A stretch of DNA of 64,000 nt from Ignavibacteria bacterium (GTDB taxonomy: Bacteria > Bacteroidota > Ignavibacteria > Kapaibacteriales > Kapaibacteriaceae). Positions within the stretch are counted from its first letter, which is position 1; each line of letters begins with the position of its first letter. This document shows, piece after piece, positions 47,269 to 64,000 of this stretch. The notes under the pieces were generated by a model, which worked only from the letters and a program-made list of their open reading frames with translations, made no database searches and was not told the DNA's origin. The position numbers were made by a program, and so were the translations under genes. The stretch is from positions 1 through 64,000 of the forward strand of contig JACPPD010000018.1 in assembly GCA_016191145.1 (NCBI GenBank). Direction: 5' to 3'.

Positions 47269-47304
47269 CACCATGCCGGGTATCAAGAGATACCCGGCAT
47301 GGTG
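47269..47304. repeat. Palindromic repeat, copy 2 (GCCGGGTATC family), left edge of accessory block
   Basis: The longest copy: a perfect 16-bp stem (CACCATGCCGGGTATC and its complement) around an AAGA loop. It lies between convergent genes and could also end transcription, though it has no T-run. Everything to its left is recognised housekeeping; to its right begins the surface/accessory block. Confidence 0.92.
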
Positions 47305-47438
47305 TAAAATTCGGGTTGTTTGGATCAGGGGGGAGTGCTCCCTCGGGGATTCGATACACCCTCCTAACCTATTGAATTTCATGGTGTTATCGTTTCAGAT
47401 AATTATGACCTGACAGTTTCACTGACAGTGATTGATAC

Positions 47439-48365
47439 CTAAGACTTCCAATAATGTAACCCGTCAGGGTCGGTGCGTAATGCTGAAATAATTGCACCCA
47501 AAGTCGGGTTTTGAAGATTCTTTGGCCAAGGTTCTTTAAGCAAACTTGTGTGCTTGGATTGAACATCAAGATATAGAAAAAAGAAAACACGAACAGATTG
47601 GTAGCCTGGATCTGCATGCGCTTGAAAATCTCGGACTAGTCTGTAGGTGTCTGATTTGGCTGAAAGTGGACCCAAGGGATACGTCGTTTCCACAAATTGA
47701 TAGAGCGATTCCTCGGTGTCATTCTCTGTGCATGGAATAATCGACTTTTCACGAATAGAAACTAGACTTGGAATTATTGGAATCACATTGCCATGTGCCA
47801 ATGTGTGTCGCATCGAACCTCTGAAAAACTTTGTAACGGCCTCTGCATTTCTTGGATCTAAATGCCTTAGAATCTTGGTTGGGTCCTTGCTGCCATAAAC
47901 ATATTGATCAAAGGAATACTGATCCGGACTGCTCACATGTTGATTTCGACAATAGGCAGCGAAAGCTAAAGTCTTTCGCATAAGTTCGATTGCTAATATG
48001 TACCATCGGAAAAACAAATTCAATACCAATTCAACTTTAATTTCTGCCGTTGGTGTCTTCAGACGATCAATTGAATTGATCCACAAGAGTTGACTGCGAA
48101 AGACGTCGAAGAATGGTCCAATCAGGTCAGTGTAATCGTGATCTGGATAACCTAGCAAAGGCGCTACCCAGGTTCTCAAAGCAGCTTCACGCTTATGAAC
48201 CATCAGATCTGATAGATAGCGAAAGAGTTTTACTCCTACCTCAAGTACTTGTTGTCCATTGGAGTCATTAACAATGGTATTCAGCTCTGGAGGAAACTGT
48301 CCTAGATTTCTCGAAACGTACTCTAAATCGCTGTTGTTTTTGCAATCAACTAGGAATTCTTCCAT
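47439..48365 (-). CDS. Protein with HEPN-like RX4H motif, unknown function
   Basis: 308 residues, mostly helical, no signal peptide. R186-HTLA-H191 followed by GN fits the RX4-6H motif of HEPN ribonucleases, including a polar residue after the Arg and the usual placement in a helix after a long helical region (residues 110-145). I recognise no named family. No MNT or other antitoxin gene is adjacent. It is a single minus-strand gene at the edge of the accessory block. HEPN assignment is a motif-based inference and needs a profile search. Confidence 0.6.
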   Translation of the reverse strand: MEEFLVDCKNNSDLEYVSRNLGQFPPELNTIVNDSNGQQVLEVGVKLFRYLSDLMVHKREAALRTWVAPLLGYPDHDYTDLIGPFFDVFRSQLLWINSIDRLKTPTAEIKVELVLNLFFRWYILAIELMRKTLAFAAYCRNQHVSSPDQYSFDQYVYGSKDPTKILRHLDPRNAEAVTKFFRGSMRHTLAHGNVIPIIPSLVSIREKSIIPCTENDTEESLYQFVETTYPLGPLSAKSDTYRLVRDFQAHADPGYQSVRVFFFLYLDVQSKHTSLLKEPWPKNLQNPTLGAIISALRTDPDGLHYWKS

Positions 48366-48787
48366 GTTGGTAGCTTCAGTTTGTTCCGAAACGGCGTAGG
48401 TCGGTCCCGCAAATTAGACACTCTTCCTGGTCAATCGTTGGTTACGAACCTATGCACCTTCGAGTGCTACCGGAACGTTGTACTCAACAGTTGAATGCAG
48501 GCTAAGCCGATTGTACTATTCGTAATGTACAGACATATTGTTCATTATCGGACAACAGCGCTTCTGATTGAGCTTTCTCCAGCGATTCTTGTTGCGTTGT
48601 AAATACTGCGATTAACATGTCGCCGAACATCACCTCTTCCACTTCGCTTGTCGTAGTATAGAAATATATCATCAATATGTTGAATAATAATTGTACCTCT
48701 TGGGGTCGATACGTAGCAGCAATAAGTCGTTGTCGTTGGTTTATTTATGTGCAGACCAATTATTGTGCTGGCGGAAAGACTGACTGT
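48366..48787. other. Gene-poor gap; two short open frames on the minus strand
   Basis: 422 nt without a supported gene. On the minus strand a 56-codon ORF (from an ATG near 48679 to a TAG near 48512) begins MIYFYTTTSEVEE. A second frame directly continues the T9SS gene past its stop for about 70 codons. Neither has a ribosome site or recognisable homology. No tRNA or clear terminator seen. Confidence 0.4.
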
Positions 48788-50629
48788 TCAAAGGATCATC
48801 TTTGCGAAGTGTACATTCCCACCATCAATGCGTATTAAGACAGGGCCAACGGCACTTGTTTCTATTACGAATGTTCCGCTTATTCCTCCGCCAAGCTCTT
48901 GCGCCAGTAATAGTTGACCGATCATATTGTAGACCTTAACAACGCTACCGGCTAAGTCCGCCGTGTTGGATTGAATCACAAGCCTGCTGCCTTCATCCCT
49001 ATGAACATCAATTTCAGGTTCCTGTTCGCGTGCATCAGCCAGATCAGTAATAAGGACAGAAACATCCTCGGATTTAACGATACATCCATTAACGTCGCGT
49101 GCGACAACAGAGTAAATACCGACAGAAGGATCCTTCAAAGGAGAAACCATTCTGGCATCACCTGAAAGCGTACGCAGTATTTCACCATTTCGCAGCCAAT
49201 AGAAAGGACCCTGCGTCCATTCAACTTGAAGCGCCGTAGCTCTGTCATTTCTGCTGATGACCTTAATCACTGGCTTTGAAGGAAGACTACTATATGTTGA
49301 ATCGGCGATGATGAGCGTATCCTGAATACCGTTACCCACAATTATCAACTGGTATGACATCGAGCGTGTTTTGTCGATTTTACTGACCTCGATTTCAGCA
49401 ATCCGTCTATTAAGTTCAACACGAAATCGCAGCTCAGCATTTGTACTAGCCTTCTCAATGAGCCTGATTGAACCCATCCTTGGACCACCAAGAACGTAGG
49501 TTATGCGATCGCAGTCCAAGATTCTATCCAACACTGAAATAGGTCTTGGAGCATTTGCCTGTACGTATACTTCAGACCCATACGGATGAATGTTGCCTTC
49601 AATGTCCATGAAAACACCATAGATTCCACCTGCGCTCTGTGGTAGTCCACCGGGTGGGAGCCGTGGATCATCCGCAGGTACTTCTGCCGACCTAATCAAC
49701 AGTTCGCAATCCCTCTTGCCTCTCTTTCCACCACTGAGAAAGAGATACTGCGAAGTGTAACTAAAACCTGCACTGTCGAGAACATTGCCATTTGAAAAAC
49801 ACATTTCTAATTCAGGCGCCTCAACAAGACTGTCAGCATCGATGTCATATCTCAGGTACGACTCAACCAATCCGGTATCGTTAGTTGAAATATCCAATAC
49901 GAGAGTATCATCAATAAGTGTAATTCCCCACTGCCTGGCGCTATAGTGTTCGTTCTTGCGTGGCCACAATGTCCGCCATGAGATTCCGTTGTTAGTTGTA
50001 ATTTTAACCTCGTTTTGAGCAGCAACAAACCATCTTTTTACGGCTAGGATGCCTTGTCCGATAATGTACAGATCGTCCAATTGCCCAAATTCCCAACTTT
50101 CTATTTCAATTGAAGTCAAACCACCATCGATGCTGCTAAATCCTCTTCCATAGGTATCTACCCAATACATATTGCCAGTGGCATCTCGACGTAGTCTACG
50201 GCCCCAAACAGTTGGCGAGTATGAGGAGCCAGTACCCTCTGACAATGTCTGCCAATTTTGCCCATGATCAACACTGGCATTGAATCCATTTCTGAACAGA
50301 GTAGAGGTTGCAATCAACTGTCCGTTCGCCAGCCGAACAACCTGGTCAAGTGACGGTTCTGCCGAACGCACGGTGTCGTATTTCCACGTCACTCCGCCAT
50401 CAAAAGAGCGCTTGACAAAATTGCCTGGACAACCTTGTTCTGTTGATTTGTATGATCCGTCGTTGCAAAGCAAATACCCGCCAACAAATGTCCCTGCGCC
50501 TGCGTACACGATACCATGCCCTCCGGCTCGCATATAGGCTGAGTCATATTGGGATTCGCCGCAAATGGCATGAACTGCACAAATTGCGTGTATTACAAGC
50601 AGTGCTTCATATCGTCGCCGTAGGAACAT
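48788..50629 (-). CDS. Secreted T9SS cargo protein with Asp-box beta-propeller repeats
   Basis: 613 residues with a basic N-terminus and signal peptide (MFLRRRYEALLVIHAI) ending near AICGE. Asp-box motifs FDGGVTWKYD, VDHGQNWQ, IDGGLTS and TNNGISWRT mark propeller blades. An Ig/PKD-like region follows (FYWLRNGEILRTL, VARDVNGCIV). The last ~75 residues are a T9SS sorting domain (VVKVYNMIGQLL, HFAKMIL). First of a run of similar minus-strand genes. Binding partner unknown. Confidence 0.82.
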   Translation of the reverse strand: MFLRRRYEALLVIHAICAVHAICGESQYDSAYMRAGGHGIVYAGAGTFVGGYLLCNDGSYKSTEQGCPGNFVKRSFDGGVTWKYDTVRSAEPSLDQVVRLANGQLIATSTLFRNGFNASVDHGQNWQTLSEGTGSSYSPTVWGRRLRRDATGNMYWVDTYGRGFSSIDGGLTSIEIESWEFGQLDDLYIIGQGILAVKRWFVAAQNEVKITTNNGISWRTLWPRKNEHYSARQWGITLIDDTLVLDISTNDTGLVESYLRYDIDADSLVEAPELEMCFSNGNVLDSAGFSYTSQYLFLSGGKRGKRDCELLIRSAEVPADDPRLPPGGLPQSAGGIYGVFMDIEGNIHPYGSEVYVQANAPRPISVLDRILDCDRITYVLGGPRMGSIRLIEKASTNAELRFRVELNRRIAEIEVSKIDKTRSMSYQLIIVGNGIQDTLIIADSTYSSLPSKPVIKVISRNDRATALQVEWTQGPFYWLRNGEILRTLSGDARMVSPLKDPSVGIYSVVARDVNGCIVKSEDVSVLITDLADAREQEPEIDVHRDEGSRLVIQSNTADLAGSVVKVYNMIGQLLLAQELGGGISGTFVIETSAVGPVLIRIDGGNVHFAKMIL

Positions 50630-50642
50630 GTTTCTGAAAATT

Positions 50643-50890
50643 CTACTTCATAATGACGATTGTTTCCGCACCGGCAATTCCTTCGCCAACAACAAGGATA
50701 AAATATGGGCCCGGAAGCATGTCGCTGGTGTTCAACAATACTTGAGAGAACCTTGACGATACCGCCACAGTTCTTTGTTGAAGCATGGACCCGTAAGATC
50801 TGCAACGGTTACCTAAACCCGCCCTGTTTTGAGATACAACAAGTTAAGAGGCATTCGACAGTCTTCGACGTTGAAACCACCGAGCTTCAT
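50643..50890 (-). pseudogene. Broken T9SS sorting-domain gene remnant
   Basis: Reading the minus strand back from TAG at 50643-50645 gives NTSDMLPGPYFILVVGEG and ETIVIMK, a typical end of a T9SS C-terminal domain. Upstream pieces VTVADLTG and SMLQQRTVAV are in different frames, so there is a frameshift near 50787, and an in-frame TAG separates VTVADLTG from LNLLYLKTGRV. The start side runs into the IS element at 50906. It is therefore a truncated, frameshifted relic of a fifth cargo gene. Confidence 0.7.
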
Positions 50891-50927
50891 GTTCAACAGG
50901 CGACATGAGGCTCCCCCAATTCCGTCG

Positions 50928-51593
50928 TCAGTCAAGTCGTTCATTTGATTGTGTTAGAAGTTGATGTTCGAATTCAGTGGGAGTCATGTAATTGATTCCT
51001 GAATGTAAACGCTGATGGTTGTAGAAGAGATGCACCCATCTGTAGACGACTGAACCTGCTTGACGAAGATCGTCAAAGAGTTTGTGATCGTGAAGTTCTG
51101 CTTTCATTCTTGACCAAACCGATTCCATTGGCGCGTTGTCGGAACAGTTTCCGACTCCGGTGGCGTCGATGCTTTGCACGATGTTGCGTTTAGCAAGCTC
51201 GGTTTTAAAGATGTCGGCATTGAATTGACTTCCTCGGTCGGAATGAAAGATCACCGGCTCGGAGGGTAGATGCCGCCGCAACCTGCACGCTTGAGCTAAT
51301 GCATGCAGAAGTGTTTTGGTCTGCATCGAATGCGATACGGTAACTCCGAGAATACGTCGAGAACAAAGGTCCATGATGGCAACAGCATACGCTTTACCGT
51401 TGCGGCATGGAAGCTCCGTGAAATCGCTCAGCCACACTTTGTCTGGATGCTGAATATCAAACGCACGCTGCAAGAGGTTTGCTGCCGGTGCCCGTGTTTG
51501 CGATGAATCTGTTGTTGGCCGATACCGGCGCTTTGCCGATACACGAATGCCAAGAGTGTACATGAGTCGCTCAACGGTCTTGTGCGTGATCAC
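50928..51593 (-). CDS. IS3-family transposase orfB (N-terminally incomplete)
   Basis: 221 residues from GTG 51593; the frame stays open to 51743, where it meets orfA, and includes YGSPRITSELRKSG, the start of the conserved HTH_21 region. The rve integrase core has the DDE residues: WLSDFTEL, FHSDRGSQF and APMESVWSRMKAE. The C-terminal YNHQRLHSGINYMTP motif is present. Normally expressed as an OrfAB frameshift fusion; no slippery site is obvious here. Likely non-functional because of the upstream deletion. Confidence 0.85.
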   Translation of the reverse strand: MITHKTVERLMYTLGIRVSAKRRYRPTTDSSQTRAPAANLLQRAFDIQHPDKVWLSDFTELPCRNGKAYAVAIMDLCSRRILGVTVSHSMQTKTLLHALAQACRLRRHLPSEPVIFHSDRGSQFNADIFKTELAKRNIVQSIDATGVGNCSDNAPMESVWSRMKAELHDHKLFDDLRQAGSVVYRWVHLFYNHQRLHSGINYMTPTEFEHQLLTQSNERLD

Positions 51594-51720
51594 ATCACCG
51601 CTTTTGCGCAGCTCGGATGTTATGCGTGGACTACCGTACGTGCCGTTACTCCAGGCATGGATGCGCTGGATGTTCTCAGTGATCCGATTTCTCAGTTTCT
51701 CGCACGCCCGCTGCTGCTGT

Positions 51721-51837
51721 TCACGTGTTGAGTGTATCGATATTCACTCCAACCTGTTGCGTTGCTTTTGCTAAGGGCAACCTCCGTTCCAGCACCAACG
51801 CAACGGCTTCACGTTTGAACGCCTCGTCATAGTGCAT
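51721..51837 (-). pseudogene. Truncated IS3-family orfA (HTH_8-like)
   Basis: 38 codons from ATG 51837: the start MHYDEAFKREAVALVLE and QQVGVNIDTL match the N-terminal HTH of IS3 OrfA proteins, but the frame stops right after TLNT, where a full OrfA continues into a RRW helix and leucine zipper. Frame shared end-to-end with the orfB open frame suggests an internal deletion of about 300 bp. Confidence 0.75.
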
Positions 51838-51923
51838 ACACTGCTTCTCTCTTTCAATGATCCTTCTCCACAGATTTATGTGATGAAGATCACAGCTGCT
51901 GTTAATTAAACGGGGGAATCTCA

Positions 51924-52156
51924 AACATTATCTCACCTTCGGATGTCTGGTGCATTAGAGACGAAATACATAGGTTCGTCGGCAAGGATAACGCATGCGA
52001 GTGTTTTTCAGTATTTAGATTTGGATTAGTGTCGATTGCAGGTTGAACACATCGTAAATAAACTTAAAACTGATCAGATTTTTTCCCATCCCAAACAGGG
52101 ATGTAACCGAAGCAATCGTGGACTGTCTCCAACCGCTCTTCGATCACAGACAAGTA
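51924..52156. other. Short spacer between IS and terminator
   Basis: No supported gene. Short open stretches on the minus strand do not join the T9SS remnant on the other side of the IS in any one frame. AT-rich. Confidence 0.4.
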
Positions 52157-52190
52157 ATAAAAAGCCCGTCCGCAAAATGTGGACGGGCAT
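52157..52190 (-). terminator. Rho-independent terminator of the giant T9SS gene
   Basis: On the minus strand, GCCCGTCC ... GGACGGGC (52164-52171 with 52181-52188) forms an 8-bp GC-rich stem with a 9-nt loop followed by a T-run (the AATAAAAA at 52156-52163 on +). It lies 37 nt downstream of the 1560-residue cargo gene. Confidence 0.85.
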
Positions 52191-52226
52191 TTCTCCGAAT
52201 GATGGAAGCCTGAGATCGCGTGGGCA

Positions 52227-55200
52227 TCAGGGTTCGACGACGAGAGTCATCGCAACGGTCATTCCTCGTGCAGAACAACGCACGATGTACATCCCGGCGG
52301 TTGCGTTGCCAAGTTTCATCTGTACATTGTTCAAACCTTTTGCCAACGGAGCCTCGAATGCCTGAACAATACCGCCTGAAATCGAAACAACTTCAATGCT
52401 GGCTATGGTTTCATGTGAAGATTTAATCGTCAGCTCAACGTTACCAAGAGTCGGATTGGGCGCCATTGATGAAATCGACAGCCAACCCAAATCGGAGGAT
52501 GTATTTTGAGACGGCTGCATAGACGCTTTCGAGAACCCTCCGGTCCCAGCCTGTAGCCTCAAATCAAGGAGTACGCGCTCGGTGAACACCTTGTAGAGAG
52601 AGTCGAAATGACCAGTGGTATCCTGTATCGCATTGAGCAAAAGAAGATTCCAGTTTACCGGAATAGAGTCTGCCTGACTGGGATACGACGACAATACCTG
52701 AGAGTACACGATTCTTGCAGAATCGAGTTCCTCCAGCAAGCGGTGCGTCTTCCCCTTTATCGACAGCGCCTGGCTTCTAAGTGCACCTGACAGTGATGAA
52801 TTCGCAGCAAGGGAAGCCAGGTCAGACTGTAATTGCGTAAATAGTTGCACAGAATCGGTGAACGCCACAGCCTGGAAATACTCCCACACAAGATTACGAC
52901 GACAGTTGAGTGATATGGTCGTATCAAATACGGCAGTTTGCAGGGTTGCAATCCGAGCATACACACTGCTGTTCACTTCCGTAAGTCCGGGATAATTAAT
53001 ACCCGGGGCGGTGCAGGGAATTGGCTGACAAGGACTCTCGGCTTCAATCAGAGCGCACGCAGCCTCGACGTCACCCTGCACATTCAGCGGAGTTCCGCTC
53101 CAGCCAATCTGGTACACAACCGGCGAAAACCCCGCGCCATTTGCCCAACGGTTGTTGCTTGCATCGAAGTTTGCAACGCTGCCATCAGAATACACATGGT
53201 AGGCCGAGTAGTCTGTGAAATCGTTGTACCCGCAATCAACAAACAGTTGTGCGCCCCGCCCTACGTTAATATCCGATACGAAGACCTGGCCATTCCAAAG
53301 ACTATACTGATCGTCAGGCGACATGAAATTATTCCTGCCAAATTCATACTCATCTTCCTTGCCGGCAATCACACGGTCGCGCAGATACGAGGTGGTAGCA
53401 TAATTTTGCAATCCAATGGCATATACTCCAAAGTAGTTGTCAACCAACCAATGCGTTCCACCAGTATAGATGCCGACGCCAACTGTACAATCATCGTAAC
53501 TGTTGCTGTAATAATCTACTTCTGAAGTGGCATAGATCACTGAGGAGAATTCATTCCCAGCAAAATCTGAAGTGCACACGCGTCCTGAATTTCCGTCAAC
53601 AAGGAGTCCAATAGAGCAATCGATAAACGTGGACGCCTGGTATAAGAAATTACGGTTATTAACAAGCACAGCGCCAGACAGAAATGAATCGAACGTCGAG
53701 TTCGTGATGTTCACCATTGAAGCACTCATTACACTCAATCCATTATTGCGATAATGATAATCGGTGACTAAATTTAAATTCTGCATGTCTCGGAATAGAC
53801 AATCGTCGACGTCAAAGTTGTTGATGAACGAAAAGTACCTAGGTGGGAAGGCTGGATCGATTTCAAACGGATTGATTGTAAAGGGTTGTTTGACATATAC
53901 GAGGGCGAATTTGCGGTCATACAAAACAGTTCTTTCAAATGTGGAATGCTCTAAATCCTTTGATTGACGATATGAACCCATTCGAATCATGTCGAAATAG
54001 GCATCCTTGCAGTGACCATACGTGATTCGAAAGTAGGAGTAATTCCAATTCCAAAATGGAGACCCTGGTAATAGGGGTTCGCCACGACCCTGCACAAACG
54101 ATCCTCTGGCAGTGGTTGAACCATTTGCCCGGCGGCCCGTAAACACTACTGGATCATTGCTGGTACCTGCAATAGTAAATTTTCCATTACAAAAATGAGC
54201 CTCCTCAAATAGTTCCACATTCGCAGCTGGAAACATCGTCCATGAGCCGTTTGAGTTGATGGTGACAGTCTTCTTGAATACCACCTTGGCAGCGCTGTTG
54301 ATTTTATACACATTTAACTTTCCGCCCGTTCTCACAACAATGGGAACGTCGATGATAATGTCTGTTCCGTCCGGGTCTCCTTCAGGAATAGAAATATTCA
54401 GCGTGCCATCGACATAAATCGTGCGGCTTGATGCTGTTGAAAGTGATGTGCTCTCAAATATTCCCGGATCATTGCCGTGCCCTGGCAATAGCTGAACGCA
54501 TGCGCCCGCTGCAATCGTCACATCACGCTGAACATCAAAGTCGCCTTGCAGATTCACTGTGCGATAACTCTTGTCCGACCAGGTATTGGTTCCCGTGTAT
54601 CCGGTAATGGTACCGCCAAGTTTTTGGTCGAAATAGCGGAGGACTAAGAAGCCGCCGTCGAAGAGCCAATTACGGGCATGTTCAATTTGTTGAGGATCTT
54701 GCGGAACTACGGTATATGCTCCACTAACGATATTTTGATCGAATCTGCCTTCTCCAAATGCCATTGAGTAGATAAACTTCTCATCTTCGGGAAGCCTGAC
54801 GGGCGGAGTTGCCGCTGGATCAAGCTCACCGCTGGCGGTGCATCGCTCAGGACCAAAATCAATTGTTGAATGCCAGACGCCGTAGAAGTACGAAGCAACT
54901 GTGTAACCGATTTTCATGAATGGGATATACGAGCTTACTCCCATTTGTGCAAGCTTATAAAAGTAAGGGTCCCAATCGTTGTATGAGAGCCTTGGGGTAA
55001 AGTCGAAAAACCCTTTTTCTGCAACCACCGGATTCGCATCGGTAATACCGGTCAGGTTTATCATCCGCACTCCCTGAGTGTATGCACTGAGCAAAACATC
55101 ATTATCATTTTCCTCATATCTGGAATCGTACGGCTGGATTACATGCGGACGGTGTGTGGTATTCGGTCCCACCCTGTTGGTTGTGCTCTGATCGGCGCCG

Positions 55201-56909
55201 GGGTTCTGCTGCGCCACGGATCCAATTGTTATGGATGTAGTCGGTAACACTCTGATGGAGCTATAATATAAATCATCCGGGTCCTCTGATTCAGGTGCAT
55301 CGTAGAGCACCAACGGACCATCATCGTTACCACTACCTCGTGGGGCAACTTGAAGAGCCCCCGAATTATACTGCGTGTTCCATACTCGTAAAAACGACCC
55401 GATTCTCAGGTCGTTCTCAAAATCTGATGTGGAACCGTTATCATCGGAATTAAGAAATGCCGGTGCCGCACCATCTTTATACACTCCGGCGGAAAGTGTA
55501 AGGGACGGTGTCCCCAATGGGTTGGAGAATGGAATTGCAAGTTCGTCAGTGGTAAGGATAAATGGCTGCTCCTGGTCGGTATGTGAAAAGAGTATTGCGG
55601 AATGACTCTTCCGCCACCACCAGTTATTTTCCAAATTGGGATCTGTTGTCTGGGTAAACCGTCGATGAGGATATTCACGGTCAGAATCGTATGGCCACCA
55701 GTGTTTATTAGAGATTGTGCAAGCATCCGGATTGGCGTAATTAACATCCATGATTACAATTCCGGCAGCGACTCCGATTCCCCCCACAGTTTTTGAGTTT
55801 CCCGGCGAAGCAATGATGAGTCGAACAGCATCGGTTCCAATCTTCTTAATATCGATTTCGTGGGTGTTGGCCCGAAAGTCTTCGGAGCTGACTTCAAACG
55901 TCGGCAACAGCAACGGAACTACATGGACTGCCGAGTTGACTGTGATTTCCGTTGACAAACGAACAACTTCGGTTGGTGCAGCGGTTGATGTCAGGAATTC
56001 AATATCTGCTAATTGAGTCATATCGAACGCATCAATAAAGGGTTGCTGGCCAATAGAAGTTGTAGCAGATAGCTTTAAAGAGGAAATCGTCATGACCCCT
56101 GCCTCCTGATCGATATTCAAGGCATGCGGGACCTGCTGCTCTGAAAGATCATTATATCCGGACAGCTTGAAGTAATCGTAATCGCTTGCAATGTATCCGA
56201 CGTACACATTCGGATCGCTGCTGCCGTTGTAGTTTGCACCCCTCGCGGATGCATCCGGTATTTCAATAACGTTAACATTGGCTGGACCGGTCTCCCTCAA
56301 TGCAACAGCACGCGAAAGGTTGATGATGAGGAACCTGGCTTTTTTATTGCCAAGAAAATCATCTTTGTCCGGCTCAAGAGGCAGACCTCCATTGACTAGC
56401 ACATCTTGAAAATTAACGACTTGCTTGTATGGTCCACCAACCCAGGCAATCAGGAAAACGTCACCCTTAAACGTCTCATTCTCAGGTTCCTGCTGATCGG
56501 AAAACACCTGCAGGATGCCAAAGTTTGCCCAATAGGGGACGTTATTGGGGTTTCCCTGAAGTGGCGGTCTCACGTAAATTCTGAGATAGTCGCCATTGGG
56601 TTCTCTCGGGTTTGTGACGTCCACAACCCGAATGCAAATTGCTCCATTGTATCCATCACTATTAACAGACTCGTATGCGGTCAGCATCAGCTGCTTCCAT
56701 CGTGTTTCACTTCCATCGGTGTATTTCACAGCGGCAAGTTCAAACTGATCCGCACTTTTTATATTAAACTCCACCACCTTGAGCAATTCCATATTTCTGC
56801 TCATCACACCACCGGCCTTTAACGTTCCGGACAGGGTGGGATGCGATTGTGGGTGCAGGCTCACAACCCACGCCAGTAAAGCTGTCGCACAGATGAAGAT
56901 TGGTCGCAT
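52227..56909 (-). CDS. Giant secreted T9SS cargo with right-handed beta-helix
   Basis: 1560 residues, signal peptide ending near SLHPQS, with GGAG 5 nt before the ATG. The first ~780 residues hold beta-sandwich-like regions and conserved patches. Around 850-1300 there is a parallel beta-helix pattern with recurring Asn/Ser turns (VNITNSTFDSFLSGAVLVNN, GNEFSSVIYATS, GRNNFMSPDDQYSLW). Residues about 1330-1470 are helical, TPR-like. The last 80 are a T9SS sorting domain (MAPNPTLGNVELTI, SISGGIVQAF, AGMYIVRCSA). Possibly an adhesin or carbohydrate-binding surface protein; no catalytic residues can be named. 18 nt separate it from the next gene upstream. Confidence 0.82.
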   Translation of the reverse strand: MRPIFICATALLAWVVSLHPQSHPTLSGTLKAGGVMSRNMELLKVVEFNIKSADQFELAAVKYTDGSETRWKQLMLTAYESVNSDGYNGAICIRVVDVTNPREPNGDYLRIYVRPPLQGNPNNVPYWANFGILQVFSDQQEPENETFKGDVFLIAWVGGPYKQVVNFQDVLVNGGLPLEPDKDDFLGNKKARFLIINLSRAVALRETGPANVNVIEIPDASARGANYNGSSDPNVYVGYIASDYDYFKLSGYNDLSEQQVPHALNIDQEAGVMTISSLKLSATTSIGQQPFIDAFDMTQLADIEFLTSTAAPTEVVRLSTEITVNSAVHVVPLLLPTFEVSSEDFRANTHEIDIKKIGTDAVRLIIASPGNSKTVGGIGVAAGIVIMDVNYANPDACTISNKHWWPYDSDREYPHRRFTQTTDPNLENNWWWRKSHSAILFSHTDQEQPFILTTDELAIPFSNPLGTPSLTLSAGVYKDGAAPAFLNSDDNGSTSDFENDLRIGSFLRVWNTQYNSGALQVAPRGSGNDDGPLVLYDAPESEDPDDLYYSSIRVLPTTSITIGSVAQQNPGADQSTTNRVGPNTTHRPHVIQPYDSRYEENDNDVLLSAYTQGVRMINLTGITDANPVVAEKGFFDFTPRLSYNDWDPYFYKLAQMGVSSYIPFMKIGYTVASYFYGVWHSTIDFGPERCTASGELDPAATPPVRLPEDEKFIYSMAFGEGRFDQNIVSGAYTVVPQDPQQIEHARNWLFDGGFLVLRYFDQKLGGTITGYTGTNTWSDKSYRTVNLQGDFDVQRDVTIAAGACVQLLPGHGNDPGIFESTSLSTASSRTIYVDGTLNISIPEGDPDGTDIIIDVPIVVRTGGKLNVYKINSAAKVVFKKTVTINSNGSWTMFPAANVELFEEAHFCNGKFTIAGTSNDPVVFTGRRANGSTTARGSFVQGRGEPLLPGSPFWNWNYSYFRITYGHCKDAYFDMIRMGSYRQSKDLEHSTFERTVLYDRKFALVYVKQPFTINPFEIDPAFPPRYFSFINNFDVDDCLFRDMQNLNLVTDYHYRNNGLSVMSASMVNITNSTFDSFLSGAVLVNNRNFLYQASTFIDCSIGLLVDGNSGRVCTSDFAGNEFSSVIYATSEVDYYSNSYDDCTVGVGIYTGGTHWLVDNYFGVYAIGLQNYATTSYLRDRVIAGKEDEYEFGRNNFMSPDDQYSLWNGQVFVSDINVGRGAQLFVDCGYNDFTDYSAYHVYSDGSVANFDASNNRWANGAGFSPVVYQIGWSGTPLNVQGDVEAACALIEAESPCQPIPCTAPGINYPGLTEVNSSVYARIATLQTAVFDTTISLNCRRNLVWEYFQAVAFTDSVQLFTQLQSDLASLAANSSLSGALRSQALSIKGKTHRLLEELDSARIVYSQVLSSYPSQADSIPVNWNLLLLNAIQDTTGHFDSLYKVFTERVLLDLRLQAGTGGFSKASMQPSQNTSSDLGWLSISSMAPNPTLGNVELTIKSSHETIASIEVVSISGGIVQAFEAPLAKGLNNVQMKLGNATAGMYIVRCSARGMTVAMTLVVEP

Positions 56910-56927
56910 AGCGCCTCCGCATGTCTC

Positions 56928-58430
56928 TTAATGGATGATGGTTAACGGTACACTGCTGACTCCCGATTCAGTTTCGAGAACGACGTAATACGATCCGCTC
57001 GACACGATGCTGACATCGACAATGACCTCGGCCTCTGCACGGTTCTGATACCGTACCGCAGTCTGCTCCCTGCCCAGCACATCAACGATGCGAATGCTCC
57101 TGATCCTCTGGGCAGCATCGATGCGCACGCTGAGATACTCATCGGCAGGATTCGGCGACATCCTGACTCCGGCATTGCCCTGAACCTCGGTAACCCCGGT
57201 ACTGCGTGTTAGGGTATAGCGAATAAGACCTGACTCCGTGATACTATCAGGACCCGGGGAGCGCGGCTGATACCACCTGTAGTATGGAATGAAGGCTTGT
57301 GAGTTCCCTGGACTTACACGAGGACCATCATAATATTCTTCTCCCGTGTCTGGGGTATATATGGGAGGTTCAATCTTCAATAACATCCATGTGTTTCCGC
57401 GGTCTGTTGTTAAAAAAAATGCAGTTCGATGGTACCACGATCCTCCGATAAGCGTATCCGCCCGCGCCCCGAGACAAAGAAAATCCCGATCGCTGGGATG
57501 AAAACCAAGCACTGGAAAGCGCCCGGTTTGCACGCGAATGGTTGCTGAATCTGACTCCGGCCACACCTGCGACGCAATCCTCTCCTGCCAGTCTAACGCG
57601 ATCAGCTCATTGGTCAAGGCATTCACAAGCAAGAGGTCCCTGCCGACGCGGGCCTCTGATGTGTCACCAAGGCCCCAATCCGTTCTCCAGAGTCCGATTA
57701 ACTTGAGGTAGGCATTTGCCACCTGGGTCCACGATGCTCCCATGTCGTCGGAATAATAATATTCCTCAGGAAGACCCACTTGCCAAAGATCATCTCCGTT
57801 AATGGTCACCCAGAGGCGTTCCGGCCGACCCCAGTCGAAATCAAACTGAATTCTGCGGCTGCCTCCCTGGGTATGCGCCGGAACGTTCAGCATGCTCCAC
57901 GGCTCATCGTCGCTTGGTCTGTAAAACAAAAAGTCAAACTCAAAACCCGGAAATGTGCCAGAGTTCCTGGTTCTCAAAAAGGTCAATTCGGAATTGAGGG
58001 GATGCACATAGAACCCCCACACGGATAAATCTGGTGGAACTCCACTGCTGTTAGGATAATTAACTGTAACATTCGCACCGCCACGCCACAGGTATATCGC
58101 CGTAGGATATGGTTCAAAAGCACCGGCATACATCCCGAAGCCCGGAAATGGCATACCGGGGGCGTAACCACCAAAGTACAGGTGAAGCGAGGAGTCCCAG
58201 GAATCGCCCTTATCTGTAGAACGAAACACCAACATCGAATCGGAGTCTGCATCATCTGAGAAAAAAACCACGGTATCACCATTGGTTTGAAGGGCATTTA
58301 TCCACCTCAGATTTGGCGGAAACCACCGGAAGAGGGTATCAACGCGGACCGTAACCTGGGCAGTGAGGTCCGTGAGCTGGCAGAACAGGCCGCAGATAAG
58401 CATGCAGGCTATCGCAGAAGATCGGCTCAT
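56928..58430 (-). CDS. Secreted T9SS cargo with Asp-box repeats
   Basis: 500 residues from ATG 58430 (MSRSSAIACMLI), giving a signal peptide that ends near LTAQV. The frame extends to 58568 but would run through a repeat element. Asp-box motifs STDKGDSWDSS, SDDMGASWTQ and TTDRGNTWML. The C-terminal sorting domain includes MSPNPADEYLSVRI and IVDVLGREQTA. It is a clear paralogue of the next gene upstream: both share an EEYYYSDDMG/ESYYTSDLG segment and similar order. Probably co-transcribed with the giant cargo gene. Confidence 0.82.
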   Translation of the reverse strand: MSRSSAIACMLICGLFCQLTDLTAQVTVRVDTLFRWFPPNLRWINALQTNGDTVVFFSDDADSDSMLVFRSTDKGDSWDSSLHLYFGGYAPGMPFPGFGMYAGAFEPYPTAIYLWRGGANVTVNYPNSSGVPPDLSVWGFYVHPLNSELTFLRTRNSGTFPGFEFDFLFYRPSDDEPWSMLNVPAHTQGGSRRIQFDFDWGRPERLWVTINGDDLWQVGLPEEYYYSDDMGASWTQVANAYLKLIGLWRTDWGLGDTSEARVGRDLLLVNALTNELIALDWQERIASQVWPESDSATIRVQTGRFPVLGFHPSDRDFLCLGARADTLIGGSWYHRTAFFLTTDRGNTWMLLKIEPPIYTPDTGEEYYDGPRVSPGNSQAFIPYYRWYQPRSPGPDSITESGLIRYTLTRSTGVTEVQGNAGVRMSPNPADEYLSVRIDAAQRIRSIRIVDVLGREQTAVRYQNRAEAEVIVDVSIVSSGSYYVVLETESGVSSVPLTIIH

Positions 58431-58542
58431 GGTGCGTATCCTTACAGACGTGGAGTAGAACAAGATTTGCAGTGGTTGGTTACAGAGAGAAAAGCTGCCG
58501 GGAGACATATGCTGCCGGGGAAGTTGCTTTGCGCCGCCAGGA

Positions 58543-58605
58543 CTTCGTGCATTGCAACTCACCCCCAACCCCCTCTCCTCACGGAGAGGGGGCTTCGTGC
58601 ATTGC
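58543..58605. repeat. CCCCCTCTCC hairpin flanked by 13-bp direct repeats
   Basis: CCCCCTCTCC (58569-58578) pairs with GGAGAGGGGG (58583-58592) around a TCAC loop, with an ACCCCCAA extension. The 13-mer CTTCGTGCATTGC stands on both sides (58543-58555 and 58593-58605). Hairpins of this CCCCCTCTCC type are widespread dispersed intergenic repeats in several phyla. The direct repeats look like a duplication produced on insertion. Confidence 0.8.
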
Positions 58606-58689
58606 CATACACCATTTGTGTCAACAAAGTCTTCAGCGAATCCATTCTGCCGTGGGTCCCCCTAATCGTCTGTTAAATATGTTTAGGGT

Positions 58690-60198
58690 TCAATGCGACA
58701 CAATGAACGGACGGTAATACACTCCTGAGTGTTCTGTCACGTGCACCACATACATGCCATTACTCCAGGCATGCGTATCAATCTGAGTTTGCTGAGCGGC
58801 ATTGTCGGAAACCTGTTGCTCATACATCAACACACCAATGCTGCTGTAGATTTCAATCTTTTTCTCTTTATTATTAGCGAGAAAATTGATAAATATATTG
58901 TCATTAACAGGATTTGGATATATTATTAACTGGCTTCCTGCATCGACGTCGCTCTCCTTTACCTCAGTAATCCTAGGCAGAGAAACACGAATCACGTCGT
59001 CAGTTTCTGTTGATCTGTGATTCACCGAATAGACTATCGTGTTTGTTTTTGGGTCAACACGCACCCACTGAAATGGATCTGTATATTTTCTGGCAGAGGG
59101 GGGTTCGATCCAATTCCAAGTCGTGCCAGAATCAATTGACACAGCGAGTCCTGTTTGCTTTATCCACGAACTATCTGCCAGCGTGTCGACCTCGACGACA
59201 ATCGAAATTATTTGTGGAGCTTCCGGGTGGAGACCGATTCCATACATCACACCACCACCCTGGCTCCAGTTAAAGGCGAAGCCAACTTCGAGTTTCGTTG
59301 TGTCATACCATGGTATCAGATCACGGATAATAATGTCTCTCCATGCGCACGGTTTAATCTCGCCGGTGATGGCATGTTTGAATTCAATCGAAGTTAATTT
59401 TTGTTTCCCACCAAGTCGTACACGACTTATCCCAAACCCTGGTTTGAATAATCCCATTCCGACAGGGATATTGTATGGTATCGGGATATAGGTGTTGCCC
59501 AAATCACTGGTGTAATAGGACTCGGGGGGAACATCGATATTAAAGTAATCTCTGCCGTCTGCTATGACGTACATCGTGTTGGTGTCGGCATAGTCGAGTT
59601 CCCACTGTAAATACGAACTGTTGCCCGGTGGATCCGGTAATCTGATTTCCTGGAATCGGGTATCATGGTCAATGTTGGTAAACGTCGGCGTGAACTTCAC
59701 AAACATATTCCATACATAAAACAGCAGCAGCATCCTGTTGTTTGAGAGCGGGTAGAATCTGGAATCGCTCGTAACACCCAGTGGCAGACCCTGGGAACTT
59801 CCCGGACCAACATCGGTGATGACCTCGGCACGCCCGTTCCGGGTGCGCATCACAACGCGTTGAGAGTCGTTTAATTCTGAATCCTGTATCCAGAGAATAT
59901 CGGAGGTTGATTCCGGGCCTGAAGATCTAAAGTTGTTGCCAAGAAAGGTAAGTTCGCTGACACTGCCGGTTGAGCCTACAATGGTGTATATAATACCAGA
60001 ATCATTGCCTGGCCGACCATCTCCAACGAGAATAGTTGTGGTGTCATTGTACGATTTCATTAACAATAACATGCTCACAAGTTTGTCGGTTGGTGTCCGC
60101 CAGATCGTGTCCTTTACAAACACCACCTGCGACGAAGTGCCAGTATAAATCGCAAGCTGAAGAACACAAAACAGGATACTATTTCTGACGATGGGCAT
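58690..60198 (-). CDS. Secreted T9SS cargo, paralogue of the neighbouring gene
   Basis: 502 residues from ATG 60198 (MPIVRNSILFCVLQ) with AGGAG 5 nt upstream on the minus strand; the longer frame to 60318 has no such site. Signal peptide ends near GTSSQV. It has the ESYYTSDLGNTY and SIDSGTTWNW blades shared with the adjacent gene, an IIRDLIPWYD region, and a sorting domain (IIYPNPVNDNIFINF, IYSSIGVLMYEQ, NGMYVVHVTE). Divergent from the Rhs cassettes, with the palindrome copy 3 between them. Confidence 0.82.
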   Translation of the reverse strand: MPIVRNSILFCVLQLAIYTGTSSQVVFVKDTIWRTPTDKLVSMLLLMKSYNDTTTILVGDGRPGNDSGIIYTIVGSTGSVSELTFLGNNFRSSGPESTSDILWIQDSELNDSQRVVMRTRNGRAEVITDVGPGSSQGLPLGVTSDSRFYPLSNNRMLLLFYVWNMFVKFTPTFTNIDHDTRFQEIRLPDPPGNSSYLQWELDYADTNTMYVIADGRDYFNIDVPPESYYTSDLGNTYIPIPYNIPVGMGLFKPGFGISRVRLGGKQKLTSIEFKHAITGEIKPCAWRDIIIRDLIPWYDTTKLEVGFAFNWSQGGGVMYGIGLHPEAPQIISIVVEVDTLADSSWIKQTGLAVSIDSGTTWNWIEPPSARKYTDPFQWVRVDPKTNTIVYSVNHRSTETDDVIRVSLPRITEVKESDVDAGSQLIIYPNPVNDNIFINFLANNKEKKIEIYSSIGVLMYEQQVSDNAAQQTQIDTHAWSNGMYVVHVTEHSGVYYRPFIVSH

Positions 60199-60422
60199 AT
60201 TCACTCCTGCAGATAATACCTGCTGGTCTCGATTGTAAATGGTGTTATGAACGCCATGATAACAATCCAATGCGCTGATTGGTGGCGCGACAAACGAACT
60301 TACCTCAATTAAGCTCACCTCCTACTTCAGATTTAATCTCAGACTTCCTAAATATCTAATTCCCGAATCCGCCCGGAATAAATCACTAAACAACTAAAAC
60401 AGATGAAACGTTACTACCGGTA

Positions 60423-62042
60423 GTGAAGATGAAAAATCATGATGCCGGGTATCTCTTGATACCCGGCATGGTTTCACGCAAACGAATAAACGAAACCGGC
60501 GTCGAATTCGATAATTTGTCGTACACATATCAACCCTCACCAAGGACCAACCGCTTGCTGAGCATCGACGACTCTTATACAACCACGGCAACACATCCTA
60601 ACGATATTGAGGATCAGGGGGCGAAAAACTACGCATACGATCAGATAGGCAACCTCACATCCGATACGCAGGAAGGTCTTTCACTTGTTGTGTGGACACC
60701 GTCGAACAAGATCGATTCCATTGCAACATCAGCGTGGCGGATAGGATACAGCTACGATGCCATGGGTAACCGCATCCGTAAGCGTGTGTGGAACACGTCG
60801 AACGAGTTGCAATCCACTACGTGGTACGTCAGAGACCCACAGGGAAGCCCCTTGGCCATTTACACAAAGAACACAACTGAGGATATTAAACTACGTGAAG
60901 TACCGCTGTACGGCTCAGATCGCATCGGGATGATAAAGCCGGATATTGCACTGAATATGACTCCGTTCGATACCGTTGGTATCGAAACGGCTTTGGAAAC
61001 CCATCGTTTTGCAGCGCAGCGATTTTACGAACTCAAGGACCATCTCGGCAACATCCGCGCAGTGGTAAACGACGACGTGCAGTTGCTCAGCACCGGAGAA
61101 TACATCCCAACAGTTGTAAGCATGACGGATTATTATCCGTTTGGGATGGCGATCGAGGAGAGAACAGAGCAGCAGTCATCATACCGTTATGGATTCAATG
61201 GTAAAGAAAATGACAATGAAGTGAAAGGGGCAGGCAACCAGCAGGATTACGGGTTCAGGATCTATGATCCGAGGGTAGGGAGGTTTTTGAGTGTGGATCC
61301 GTTGACGAGAGAGTATCCGTGGTATACGCCTTATCAGTTTGCGGGGAACACGCCGATACAAGCGATTGACCGTCAAGGTAAGGATGCATTTTTAGTTATT
61401 TGGTTTGCTAAGTCCGATGATGGCAGTATCGGACACACGGCATTGGTCGTGGAGAACTACAAGACAATTACGAAAAAGGTCGTTGAAAATGGACGTACCG
61501 TAACAATGACTGAGAAAGTGCCTGACGGTACATACCAATATTTCGATCTTTGGCCAGAAAAGCCCGTGGATAAAACGGAACTTCAAACAGGGGTCAAATC
61601 AGATTACAACACAAAGGTGCTGTTTAGCCTTGAGGATTTCACTTTAAACGACCCTAGTGTAAGCGGTGAACGAGGAAAAGTAAGTGAACTTGGTGAAGGA
61701 AGGGCACCAGACGCAGTTGTGCGATTTACACTCGACGCGGCATCAACGGAAAGTATTGAAGCTAAGGGTAATATGCTTGTGGAGGGCAACAATCAATACA
61801 ATGCAAGTTTTAACAATTGTACAACATTTGCTATAAAAACGTTAAACGTCGCGGTTCCATCTTTGAACGGTGAAGAGTACTTGGATGCACCGTGGTTTAT
61901 GGAAATGATAGGATTGAAAGACACGATGGCAAAAACGCCGAACCAAGCATACAGAGATGCCACGAAGATTCCAGGCTCTTCGATTGAGAAAAAACCCAAA
62001 GTAGAACCTGAGAAAAAGAATTACCTAGACATTGTCAAATGA
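60423..62042 (+). CDS. 5'-truncated Rhs/YD-repeat cassette with C-terminal permuted-papain-like tip (putative toxin)
   Basis: 539 residues from ATG 60423; ATG 60468 is also possible. Residues about 28-320 are the end of an Rhs core: YD repeats (NYAYDQIGNLTSD, IGYSYDAMGNRIRK), [19 protein letters not shown], and the hallmark [14 protein letters not shown] at about 283-296, then PYQFAGNTPIQAID. No signal or N-terminal core is present. The unique tip, about 322-539, has H338 in GHTALVVE and N465-C466 in NNCTTFAIK. This His-before-Cys order with an NC(T/E)xF motif is typical of permuted NlpC/P60 folds (LRAT-like, DUF4105). Toxin activity is inferred. The stop overlaps the next ATG by 4 nt. Confidence 0.85.
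   Translation: MKMKNHDAGYLLIPGMVSRKRINETGVEFDNLSYTYQPSPRTNRLLSIDDSYTTTATHPNDIEDQGAKNYAYDQIGNLTSDTQEGLSLVVWTPSNKIDSIATSAWRIGYSYDAMGNRIRKRVWNTSNELQSTTWYVRDPQGSPLAIYTKNTTEDIKLREVPLYGSDRIGMIKPDIALNMTPFDTVGIETALETHRFAAQRFYELKDHLGNIRAVVNDDVQLLSTGEYIPTVVSMTDYYPFGMAIEERTEQQSSYRYGFNGKENDNEVKGAGNQQDYGFRIYDPRVGRFLSVDPLTREYPWYTPYQFAGNTPIQAIDRQGKDAFLVIWFAKSDDGSIGHTALVVENYKTITKKVVENGRTVTMTEKVPDGTYQYFDLWPEKPVDKTELQTGVKSDYNTKVLFSLEDFTLNDPSVSGERGKVSELGEGRAPDAVVRFTLDAASTESIEAKGNMLVEGNNQYNASFNNCTTFAIKTLNVAVPSLNGEEYLDAPWFMEMIGLKDTMAKTPNQAYRDATKIPGSSIEKKPKVEPEKKNYLDIVK
60442..60469. repeat. Palindromic repeat, copy 3 (inverted), at the Rhs cassette start
   Basis: Perfect ATGCCGGGTATC / GATACCCGGCAT with loop TCTT, the complement of the AAGA loop of copy 2, so this copy lies in opposite orientation. 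It sits inside the open frame of the first Rhs cassette, whose ATG at 60468 uses bases of the right arm. The recognisable Rhs sequence begins about 30 nt after the palindrome. Confidence 0.92.
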
Positions 62043-62473
62043 TGCACCTCCGTTTTGGAATATGGTTTCTTCTTTTTCTGATTATGTGGTTTGCAAATTC
62101 GTCGTGCAAACGACATTACTGTGAAGCTCATTGTAGCCCACTATGTGTTGTGATCAAACTTCAAAGTATAGAAGAAGACGGTGACATAAACAACCCACAA
62201 GTCGATAGCTTGGTTGATTTTACGACGGCATACATGTGCGATTCTTTGAATGGTCGACAATGTTGGGAGGGAGTGACAATGTTTGCTTATAGATTGGCAC
62301 GAGACAAAAAATTCACAAATAATCATCGTTACCATCTTGATTCGATCGAAGAAAGGTATTGTGGTGACAGTGCGTCTGTTATTATGTCAAGAGCAAACCA
62401 CACAGAGGAATATGGTCTTATAAGACACGGTTCCTCCTGGAGGGTAGTCTCGTGGAAATACAAGAGTAGATAG
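62039..62473 (+). CDS. Small lipoprotein, putative immunity partner of the cassette-1 tip
   Basis: 144 residues starting in ATGATG, overlapping the cassette stop by 4 nt. Lipoprotein signal: hydrophobic residues 6-18, then lipobox NSSC (Cys about 23). The mature part is Cys-rich (CEAHCSPLCVV, AYMCDS, RQCWEG, RYCGDS) and ends in a HGSSWRVVSWKYK strand reminiscent of NTF2-like/DUF4878 domains, a weak resemblance. No homology recognised. Position directly after an Rhs tip and translational coupling make immunity the best reading. A periplasmic location would fit a tip acting on envelope substrates. Confidence 0.65.
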   Translation: MMHLRFGIWFLLFLIMWFANSSCKRHYCEAHCSPLCVVIKLQSIEEDGDINNPQVDSLVDFTTAYMCDSLNGRQCWEGVTMFAYRLARDKKFTNNHRYHLDSIEERYCGDSASVIMSRANHTEEYGLIRHGSSWRVVSWKYKSR

Positions 62474-62500
62474 ACTATATTGGTCAGATGCCTGCTAACC

Positions 62501-64000
62501 ATGAACATCAGTTTTCAGTATGAATGTTTGAAGGTGCGGCTTAAACGCTGTGAGTGGAAGGGTGTACCCTTGTACAATGGCAACATTGCATCGTGGATGT
62601 GGAATACACGTCAGAACGATGGTGTGCCCCTTACCGCACTTGCAGGCGTGTACCGCTACGACATGCTGAACAGAATTAAAGCCGACACAATTCATGAAAG
62701 GGGCTCTGGTAGCTGGTTGGCCAGCACCGGTGTGTTCGATACTAAATATTCATACGATCCCAACGGTAACATTCTTGCGCTCAGACGCAACGATGACGGC
62801 GGATCTCAATTCGATAATCTTACATACACGTACCTTAGTGAAACGAACAAGCTCACGCACATCGATGATACTGAAGCCGATGGAGTTCATGCATCGGATC
62901 TCGACGATCAGATAGCCAACAACTACACGTACGATGCCACCGGAAACCTCACATCCGATGTTAAGGAAGACATCGATCTCATCGCTTGGACACCGTCGAA
63001 CAAAATCGATTCCATCATGAAAGGCGACACACTGGCGGTCTCCTATCGGTACGACGGCATGGGCAACCGAGTGATAAAGCGAGTGTGGGATGGTGAAGGG
63101 GCAACCACGTTGAAGAGTACAACGTGGTACGTCAGAGACGCTCAGGGCAATCCCATGGGCATTTATACACAAGTGGCTGATACCGGTGATATCACCCTTG
63201 GTGAACTGCCTATGTATGGATCAGACAGACTAGGTCTCATGCAGGTGCAAGCCTCTTATGCAGCACCAACGTCAGGCACAATATTCGATCGCACTGTTGG
63301 ACTCAAGCGATACGAGATGAAGGATCATCTGGGAAATGTAAGAGCAATCCTAACAGATGCAGTCGTTGACATCGGATCCTCAGACCTGATTGCAATGGTT
63401 GTCAGCCGAACAGATTATTATCCGTTTGGCATGCCGATGACGGGAAGGGCTTACAATACAAGTTCATCTTACCGATATGGTTTCAATGGGGCTGAGGAGG
63501 ATAACGAAGTAAAAGGTGAAGGAAATAGTTATTCATTTAAGTTCAGAGTTTACGACCCAAGAATGGGGCGCTTTCTTTCTGTTGACCCTCTTTCTAAAAA
63601 TTATCCGTGGAATAGCCCTTATGCTTTTGCTGAAAATGATGTAATTAGAGCAATAGACCTTGAAGGGCTGGAAAAATATATAGTTACTGTAAGGTCATTT
63701 ATTCCAATGAAGACTTTAGACAACCCTTCTTATTCACTTAATTTCAAATCATCTTCTTTCGGTGGCGATAATAGGAATTACTACACTGTCAATAATGCGT
63801 CCTATAGAACAGAGCAAAAAGTAGTTGCAGACTTTGACCAAAGAAAGGTTTATTATACAAATAATATTGCAAGTGGTTCTATTGGATATGACAGTAAAGG
63901 CAATGTTGTAGAGACTTCAGACCCCGCAACAGCTGGAACTATAAGTAATACTCCAATGACAGAAAAATCTACTTCTGTAACTATTTACTTAAAAGTGGAC
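62501..64000 (+). CDS. Second 5'-truncated Rhs/YD-repeat cassette with different tip (runs off window)
   Basis: Open from 62501 to the window end (500 codons). The ATG at 62501 follows a TAG at 62471. It begins with a late Rhs-core piece ([19 protein letters not shown]), extending further upstream in the core than cassette 1. The core then parallels it closely: [60 protein letters not shown]. After about residue 390 the tip is unrelated to tip 1 ([40 protein letters not shown]), is more AT-rich and incomplete. Identity of the tip unknown. Confidence 0.85.

Follow-up and report, generated by a model that had tools for sequence, protein, structure and literature searches.

Rhs/WapA proteins of Gram-positive bacteria are Sec-exported. 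In Enterobacteriaceae, orphan rhs-CT/rhsI modules were described (Salmonella Typhimurium LT2; PMC3967940) that consist of a 3' core fragment, the hallmark motif, a variable tip and a small downstream gene, and that have neither a translation start nor an export signal. Recombination of LT2 rhs was demonstrated with 95% identity over 522 bp (PMC3967940). Polymorphic toxins neighbouring genes of type IX secretion system (T9SS) cargo are already known (TANFOR; PMC7073777), as are island-borne contact toxins (contact-dependent growth inhibition, CDI; PMC4927057). Here, two tandem cassettes of the orphan Rhs kind (A and B) were analysed at the 3' end of a 64,000-nucleotide stretch (the window) of contig JACPPD010000018.1 from an Ignavibacteria bacterium (GCA_016191145.1). 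The window is C14:1-64000 of a contig of 82,097 bp (C14), and positions past 64000 are given as C14 coordinates. Its genome (G000; 2.47 Mb, 19 contigs) is 99.96% complete. The best explanation, with a probability of about 0.72, is that A and B are orphan rhs-tip/partner modules stranded on a 24-kb tRNA-Lys island and aimed at the cell envelope. Layout, islands, tips and partners are known here from sequence, and claims of toxicity and immunity are putative throughout.

A and B are real tandem truncated rhs-tip/partner cassettes with the following features (G005 is a relative described below).

60441 to 60470: REP-like (repetitive extragenic palindrome) element where cassette A is cut off at its 5' end; exact position; dozens of copies in the genome
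60471 to 61382, + strand: cassette A Rhs core fragment; own start codon and export signal absent; 55% identity with the 3' core of a full-length Rhs in G005; TIGR03696 54.2 bits, 1.6e-14
61383 to 62042, + strand: tip of cassette A, 219 aa long; domain with an H...C motif and a remote likeness to Lnb_N (PF13387; E=2.4e-4, just under the cut-off); homologous Rhs tips in Taishania pollutisoli and Leptospira noguchii
62039 to 62473, + strand: tip A partner, 144 aa, putative immunity protein; ATGA overlap; N-terminal export signal (hydrophobic N-terminus)
62555 to 63661, + strand: Rhs core fragment of cassette B; 49% identity with a full-length Rhs core in G005; TIGR03696 50.8 bits, 1.8e-13
63662 to 64000, continuing to C14:64372, + strand: tip of cassette B with a DUF3238 domain (PF11579; whole tip, E=2.2e-12)
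C14:64376-64819, just past the window: tip B partner, 147 aa, membrane-spanning

Open reading frame (ORF) A spans 60423-62042 (539 aa), and ORF B, with a TTG start, spans 62480-64372 (630 aa) and ends beyond the window. The longest open frame, 632 codons as against 177 in shuffles of the stretch, is far beyond chance. Both ORFs run from an Rhs core fragment without N-terminus, above the TIGR03696 cut-off, through the hallmark to a distinct tip and a coupled small gene, which is the layout of orphan rhs-CT/immunity modules. The tips (219 aa in A, ~235 aa in B) are without significant similarity (24% identity in a forced alignment). ORFs, TIGR03696 and alignments agree with the initial annotation, which had read the region as two consecutive genes of this layout with unrelated tips and a small coupled gene between them. 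Tip A and its partner overlap by 4 bp (ATGA), and tip B and its partner lie 3 bp apart; besides the coupled gene noted between the cassettes, B has a partner of its own. The description of both genes as beginning in mid-core holds in so far as both cores are fragments, but Rhs homology starts at ~60471 in A, directly after the palindrome, and at ~62555 in B, not at the TTG. The same core segment is present twice, each time with a separate tip, and a single frameshifted Rhs gene spanning 60423-64000 was therefore rejected. The PF03527 RHS profile gave no match even in controls and was thus uninformative.

The REP-like palindrome (GATGCCGGGTATC-loop-GATACCCGGCATG) marks the truncation point of cassette A, and the first ~16 codons of ORF A come from this stretch. 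Because the palindrome recurs at dozens of genomic places, 60423 is no gene start. No Rhs remnant was found left of 60470 by tblastn with three full-length parents. Members of the REP-like family are ~30 nt long, and some copies are paired in opposite orientation. Copies in the window lie at 60441-60470, 47272-47301 (~35 bp outside the left border of the island) and 141-170. Another copy, at C15:136264, lies ~0.35 kb upstream of a further orphan Rhs module on contig C15.

Searches of G000 with the core profile and with the core protein found no full-length Rhs parent. The profile matched three places (A, B and contig C10), to which the protein search added C15. C10 (L011 7539-10644) and C15 (L012 8648-10923) hold further short, truncated Rhs modules, in each of which an exported partner comes after a tip that looks like a metallopeptidase (AAHELFSHF, YAHELGHLLGLED). 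Both modules are partly broken: core and tip of C15 are in different frames, and an HNH-type gene (labelled by eye) lies inside the C10 module. The proposed search for a parent and more tips, here made over the whole genome, yielded more tips and no parent. Whereas LT2 has a main rhs gene and cores sharing 95% over 522 bp, G000 has no detected main gene, and the best BLASTN piece between A and B is 71% over 128 bp. The two cores are 54.5% identical in amino acids and 59% in nucleotides, and third positions of identical residues are 51% identical. The shared words reported at 60693/62987 and ~60819/63122 are present; they are 17-29-nt islands within conserved protein blocks, and the cores around them are not near-identical. 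Recombination between A and B through these words was rejected as stated, given this divergence and the 94-96% over ~700 bp seen among core copies in the relative G004.

Related cores were found in 21 of 60 relatives searched, several of them in genes of 2,300-2,700 aa that start with signal peptides. The named carriers are Candidatus Kapaibacterium and metagenome-assembled genomes labelled 'Ignavibacteria' or 'Bacteroidetes', and judged by these relatives G000 probably belongs to the little-studied Kapabacteria/Kapaibacteriia of the Bacteroidota. In G004 (same genus, single contig; L053, C1:2494001-2514000) at least six orphans, each a truncated core with its tip and partner, come after a main rhs gene, the parent. 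At the DNA level their cores mostly match that of the parent at 92-100%, apart from one 50-nt block of ~80%; beyond the hallmark, identity falls to 20-60% in the tips. Core copies of G013 are 95% identical over 540 bp, and those of G009 and G045 are 92-98% identical over shorter stretches; orphan arrays with a parent exist in G004 and G013, and possibly in G009 and G045. The G004 array resembles G000 in its truncated cores, tips and partners, and two of its orphans match the C10 module of G000 in both tip (53% aa) and partner (20%, E 4e-20). The array differs in having a parent and near-identical cores, and A and B belong to another core subfamily (~25-39% aa to G004). The idea of an orphan array feeding tips into a full-length gene is therefore apt for relatives; in G000, where only A, B and the remnants C10 and C15 were detected, an active reservoir is unsupported because no parent was found and the cores are too diverged.

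The cassettes lie on a tRNA-integrated island, the borders of which were mapped as follows.

C14:47335-71330 (window part 47335 to 64000), no strand: genomic island, 23,976 bp from repeat to repeat; 20-nt exact repeat; empty site in G001
47335 to 47354, - strand: left attachment repeat GTGCTCCCTCGGGGATTCGA, which repeats the 3' end of tRNA-Lys; its right counterpart is at 71311-71330
C14:71311-71385, - strand: tRNA-Lys(ctt), with the island inserted in its 3' end
C14:69860-71128: tyrosine integrase (PF00589, SAM and Arm domains), 183 bp from tRNA-Lys
52227 to 60318, - strand: three tandem exported proteins with a T9SS C-terminal sorting domain (PF18962, 1e-13 to 3e-6), island cargo

The last 20 nt of tRNA-Lys (TCGAATCCCCGAGGGAGCAC) recur exactly at 47335-47354. 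An empty site was found in the same-genus sister G001, where a 3.9-kb contig passes straight from a match to C14:44232-47354 (88.8%) to one to C14:71307-72056 (85.4%); the alignments overlap by 24 bp, and tRNA-Lys is intact. Integrase beside the tRNA, border repeats of the tRNA 3' end and the empty site in a relative together define the island. Downstream of B lie IS3-type transposase fragments, a DUF2971 gene, a helix-turn-helix (HTH) gene and the integrase. The run 48788-60318 holds BNR/Asp-box-type and T9SS-sorted exported proteins, which are probably surface or secreted proteins that travel with the island. A and B had been placed beside a T9SS cargo island. The T9SS genes do adjoin them, because both are cargo of the same tRNA-Lys island, but no functional link is shown: with 88 sorting domains in the genome (~1 per 28 kb), closeness alone does not establish one. 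No T9SS sorting domain (PF18962/TIGR04183) was found on A or B, both of which end in tips, and on these two grounds a functional link to T9SS is unsupported. Like the TANFOR toxins (PMC7073777), the cassettes are polymorphic toxin-type genes amid T9SS cargo genes in the same phylum, but the N-terminal family differs, and two full-length Rhs relatives scanned had no TANFOR match. With CDI (PMC4927057) they share carriage as island cargo; CDI is CdiA/CdiB two-partner secretion and not Rhs, and here no delivery gene is present.

The integrase-HTH-tRNA arrangement also adjoins Rhs genes in G005, G004 and G008, with integrases 59%, 62% and 42% identical, respectively, and tRNA-Arg genes. G000 has three copies of the integrase, and its link to Rhs is therefore not exclusive. 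An 18-nt tRNA repeat suggests a ~38-kb tRNA-Arg island in G005 (L042 and L057, C27:742-38895) on which type I restriction-modification genes would accompany an operon with a full-length Rhs gene. No tRNA-repeat borders were found in G004 and G008 within the ~55-80 kb examined. G005 is deposited as Bradyrhizobiaceae (JAGFIZ01) and evidently mislabelled. Directly upstream of its rhs gene lies a gene for an FGE-sulfatase-domain (SUMF1) lipoprotein (G005:C27, L042 14143-15285; Pfam 7.9e-38). Similar genes ending in GLRxxR precede other full-length Rhs genes (L043, L050), with Pfam confirmation for the G005:C27 copy only. The formylglycine-enzyme-like lipoprotein could be an accessory or maturation factor.

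Across 394 further genomes of the phylum, neither tip had a match at E<=1e-5, although cores are common, and conservation of identical tips among relatives can be set aside. Tip A resembles the tips of a long Rhs protein from Taishania pollutisoli (30% identity over 197 aa, 7e-18) and of a tandem Rhs module carried by a plasmid of Leptospira noguchii (26%, 2e-4). Tips are thus exchanged independently of the core, being absent in the 394 relatives and, for tip A, present on other cores. The plasmid region (p2_LIP1804061 58600-64971; L188) holds tandem Rhs genes with a small exported protein between them, the first tip being of the A family; this is the cassette layout in another phylum. Residues conserved in the A family are GH, GTYxY..LWPE, EGR and NC, and GH...NC is kept in three tips from distant bacteria. 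These motifs and the sub-threshold Lnb_N match suggest that tip A is an NlpC/P60-like thiol enzyme with His and Cys as predicted catalytic residues. A PDB search with the tip A profile gave chance-level matches only. Tip B is a DUF3238 domain (47.7 bits against a cut-off of 21.1, positions 5-191 of 193). Its solved relative 3c5p (8e-7) is a structure of unassigned function, and no mention of DUF3238 was found in the searched open literature. Among 56 tips of the order, single or double matches were obtained to YkuD, Tlde1, Peptidase_M91, lipase, phospholipase A2-like, reprolysin and Ntox44 families, which we take to be mostly envelope-type enzymes; most tips match nothing.

N-terminal export or membrane signals were called in 40 of 51 tip partners of the order, as against 25 of 70 neighbouring downstream genes (Fisher p=3e-6). 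The partners of the two homologous A-family tips in Taishania and Leptospira are also exported. Partner follows tip: in all five non-duplicate pairs with similar partners the tips are similar as well (5/5), a count used here since the Fisher value for this co-variation is inflated by duplicate records. Delivery by a type VI secretion system (T6SS) was rejected, the sheath gene VipB/TssC (PF05943) being absent from the seven family genomes G000, G004, G005, G008, G009, G013 and G017. In contrast to the LT2 modules (PMC3967940), A and B combine a tRNA island and partners with export signals with a genome that has no T6SS sheath gene. The full-length relatives resemble the Rhs/WapA proteins of Gram-positive bacteria in having a signal peptide and no visible T6SS adaptor, but here an outer membrane has to be crossed.

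Under the explanation of A and B as stranded envelope-directed modules, islands of the genus would carry a full-length Rhs gene with a Sec signal, followed by spare tips. In G000 the parent would have been lost and A cut back to the REP-like palindrome, so that 3' core, tip and partner remain. Where a genome retains the parent, recombination in the shared core may fuse a tip to the Sec-exported Rhs protein. The exported tip would attack the envelope of a neighbour (A as an NlpC/P60-like thiol enzyme, B through its uncharacterised DUF3238 domain), and the exported partner would protect that of the owner. In G000 itself neither tip has a start, an export signal or donor homology, so that both are probably silent; any remaining action would be that of the partners, as orphan immunity. 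Several results weigh against this explanation. The Lnb_N match of tip A reaches 21.2 bits where the cut-off is 22.2, and AlphaFold models of tip A had a pLDDT of 35 (alone) or 40 (with one homologue) and were discarded. The partners match no known immunity family. The same export test in loci of other Bacteroidota showed no bias (51/84 vs 38/72, p=0.33). Export was moreover called by a crude rule on hydropathy, against background ORFs that were left unrefined, and the loci are related; the export bias in the order is thus a lead. Finally, the assembly is in 19 contigs, and a repetitive parent may sit in an assembly gap.

The alternative that survives best, possible if somewhat doubtful, is that selection keeps only the exported partners, as protection against matching tips of neighbours, with the truncated tips as passengers. 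The absence of a detected parent and the intactness of both partners fit it, it is compatible with the stranded-module explanation, and other systems are known to have orphan immunity genes (PMC10539506, PMC12247911). Useless tips should decay, yet both tip frames are open; the relatives are too distant for selection to be measured. Close behind it, but unlikely, is plain decay, in which A and B, as dead remains of one or two Rhs genes that were lost, no longer have a role. The missing start signals, the REP-like element at the truncation, the IS3-type transposase fragments beside B and the partly frameshifted or interrupted remnants C10 and C15 speak for it; A, B and both partners are nonetheless uninterrupted, and a 632-codon frame is beyond chance, which a recent origin would explain too. 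It is improbable that the tips are enzymes or adhesive ends of surface YD-repeat proteins, with partners as chaperones or inhibitors. Exported partners, the putative nature of tip toxicity and the peptidase-like character of two tips in G000 and several elsewhere would suit this, but tip turnover on a constant core with a co-changing partner is the signature of polymorphic toxins, and tips in the order match the effector families Tlde1, Ntox44 and Peptidase_M91. An active reservoir, with A and B as donors that recombine into the genome's own full-length Rhs gene, is the least probable reading, since the arrays of relatives (G004, G013, possibly G009 and G045) and the open frames of A and B are outweighed by the missing parent and by cores only 59% identical at the DNA level.

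Orphan rhs modules as such are a known kind. No paper combining Kapabacteria and Rhs was found in the searched open literature, the coverage of which is incomplete. New are the orphan arrays in Kapabacteria, cassette carriage on an island for which an empty site is known, a truncation marked by a REP-like element and the partner export bias.

A and B extend the range of orphan Rhs cassettes to an uncultured lineage and link such cassettes to a mobile element that is defined and whose empty site has been mapped. Tip A and DUF3238 become concrete candidate antibacterial domains, and the G004 array is a better system than the window for testing tip exchange. It also becomes testable whether, with Sec-exported Rhs proteins and no T6SS, the envelope receives the immunity proteins because it is the place of toxin action. 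Tentatively, Kapabacteria may possess a T6SS-free, envelope-directed weapon, in which Sec-exported Rhs tips and exported immunity proteins would be spread by tRNA islands that also move T9SS proteins, and in which loss and decay would strand cassettes such as A and B.

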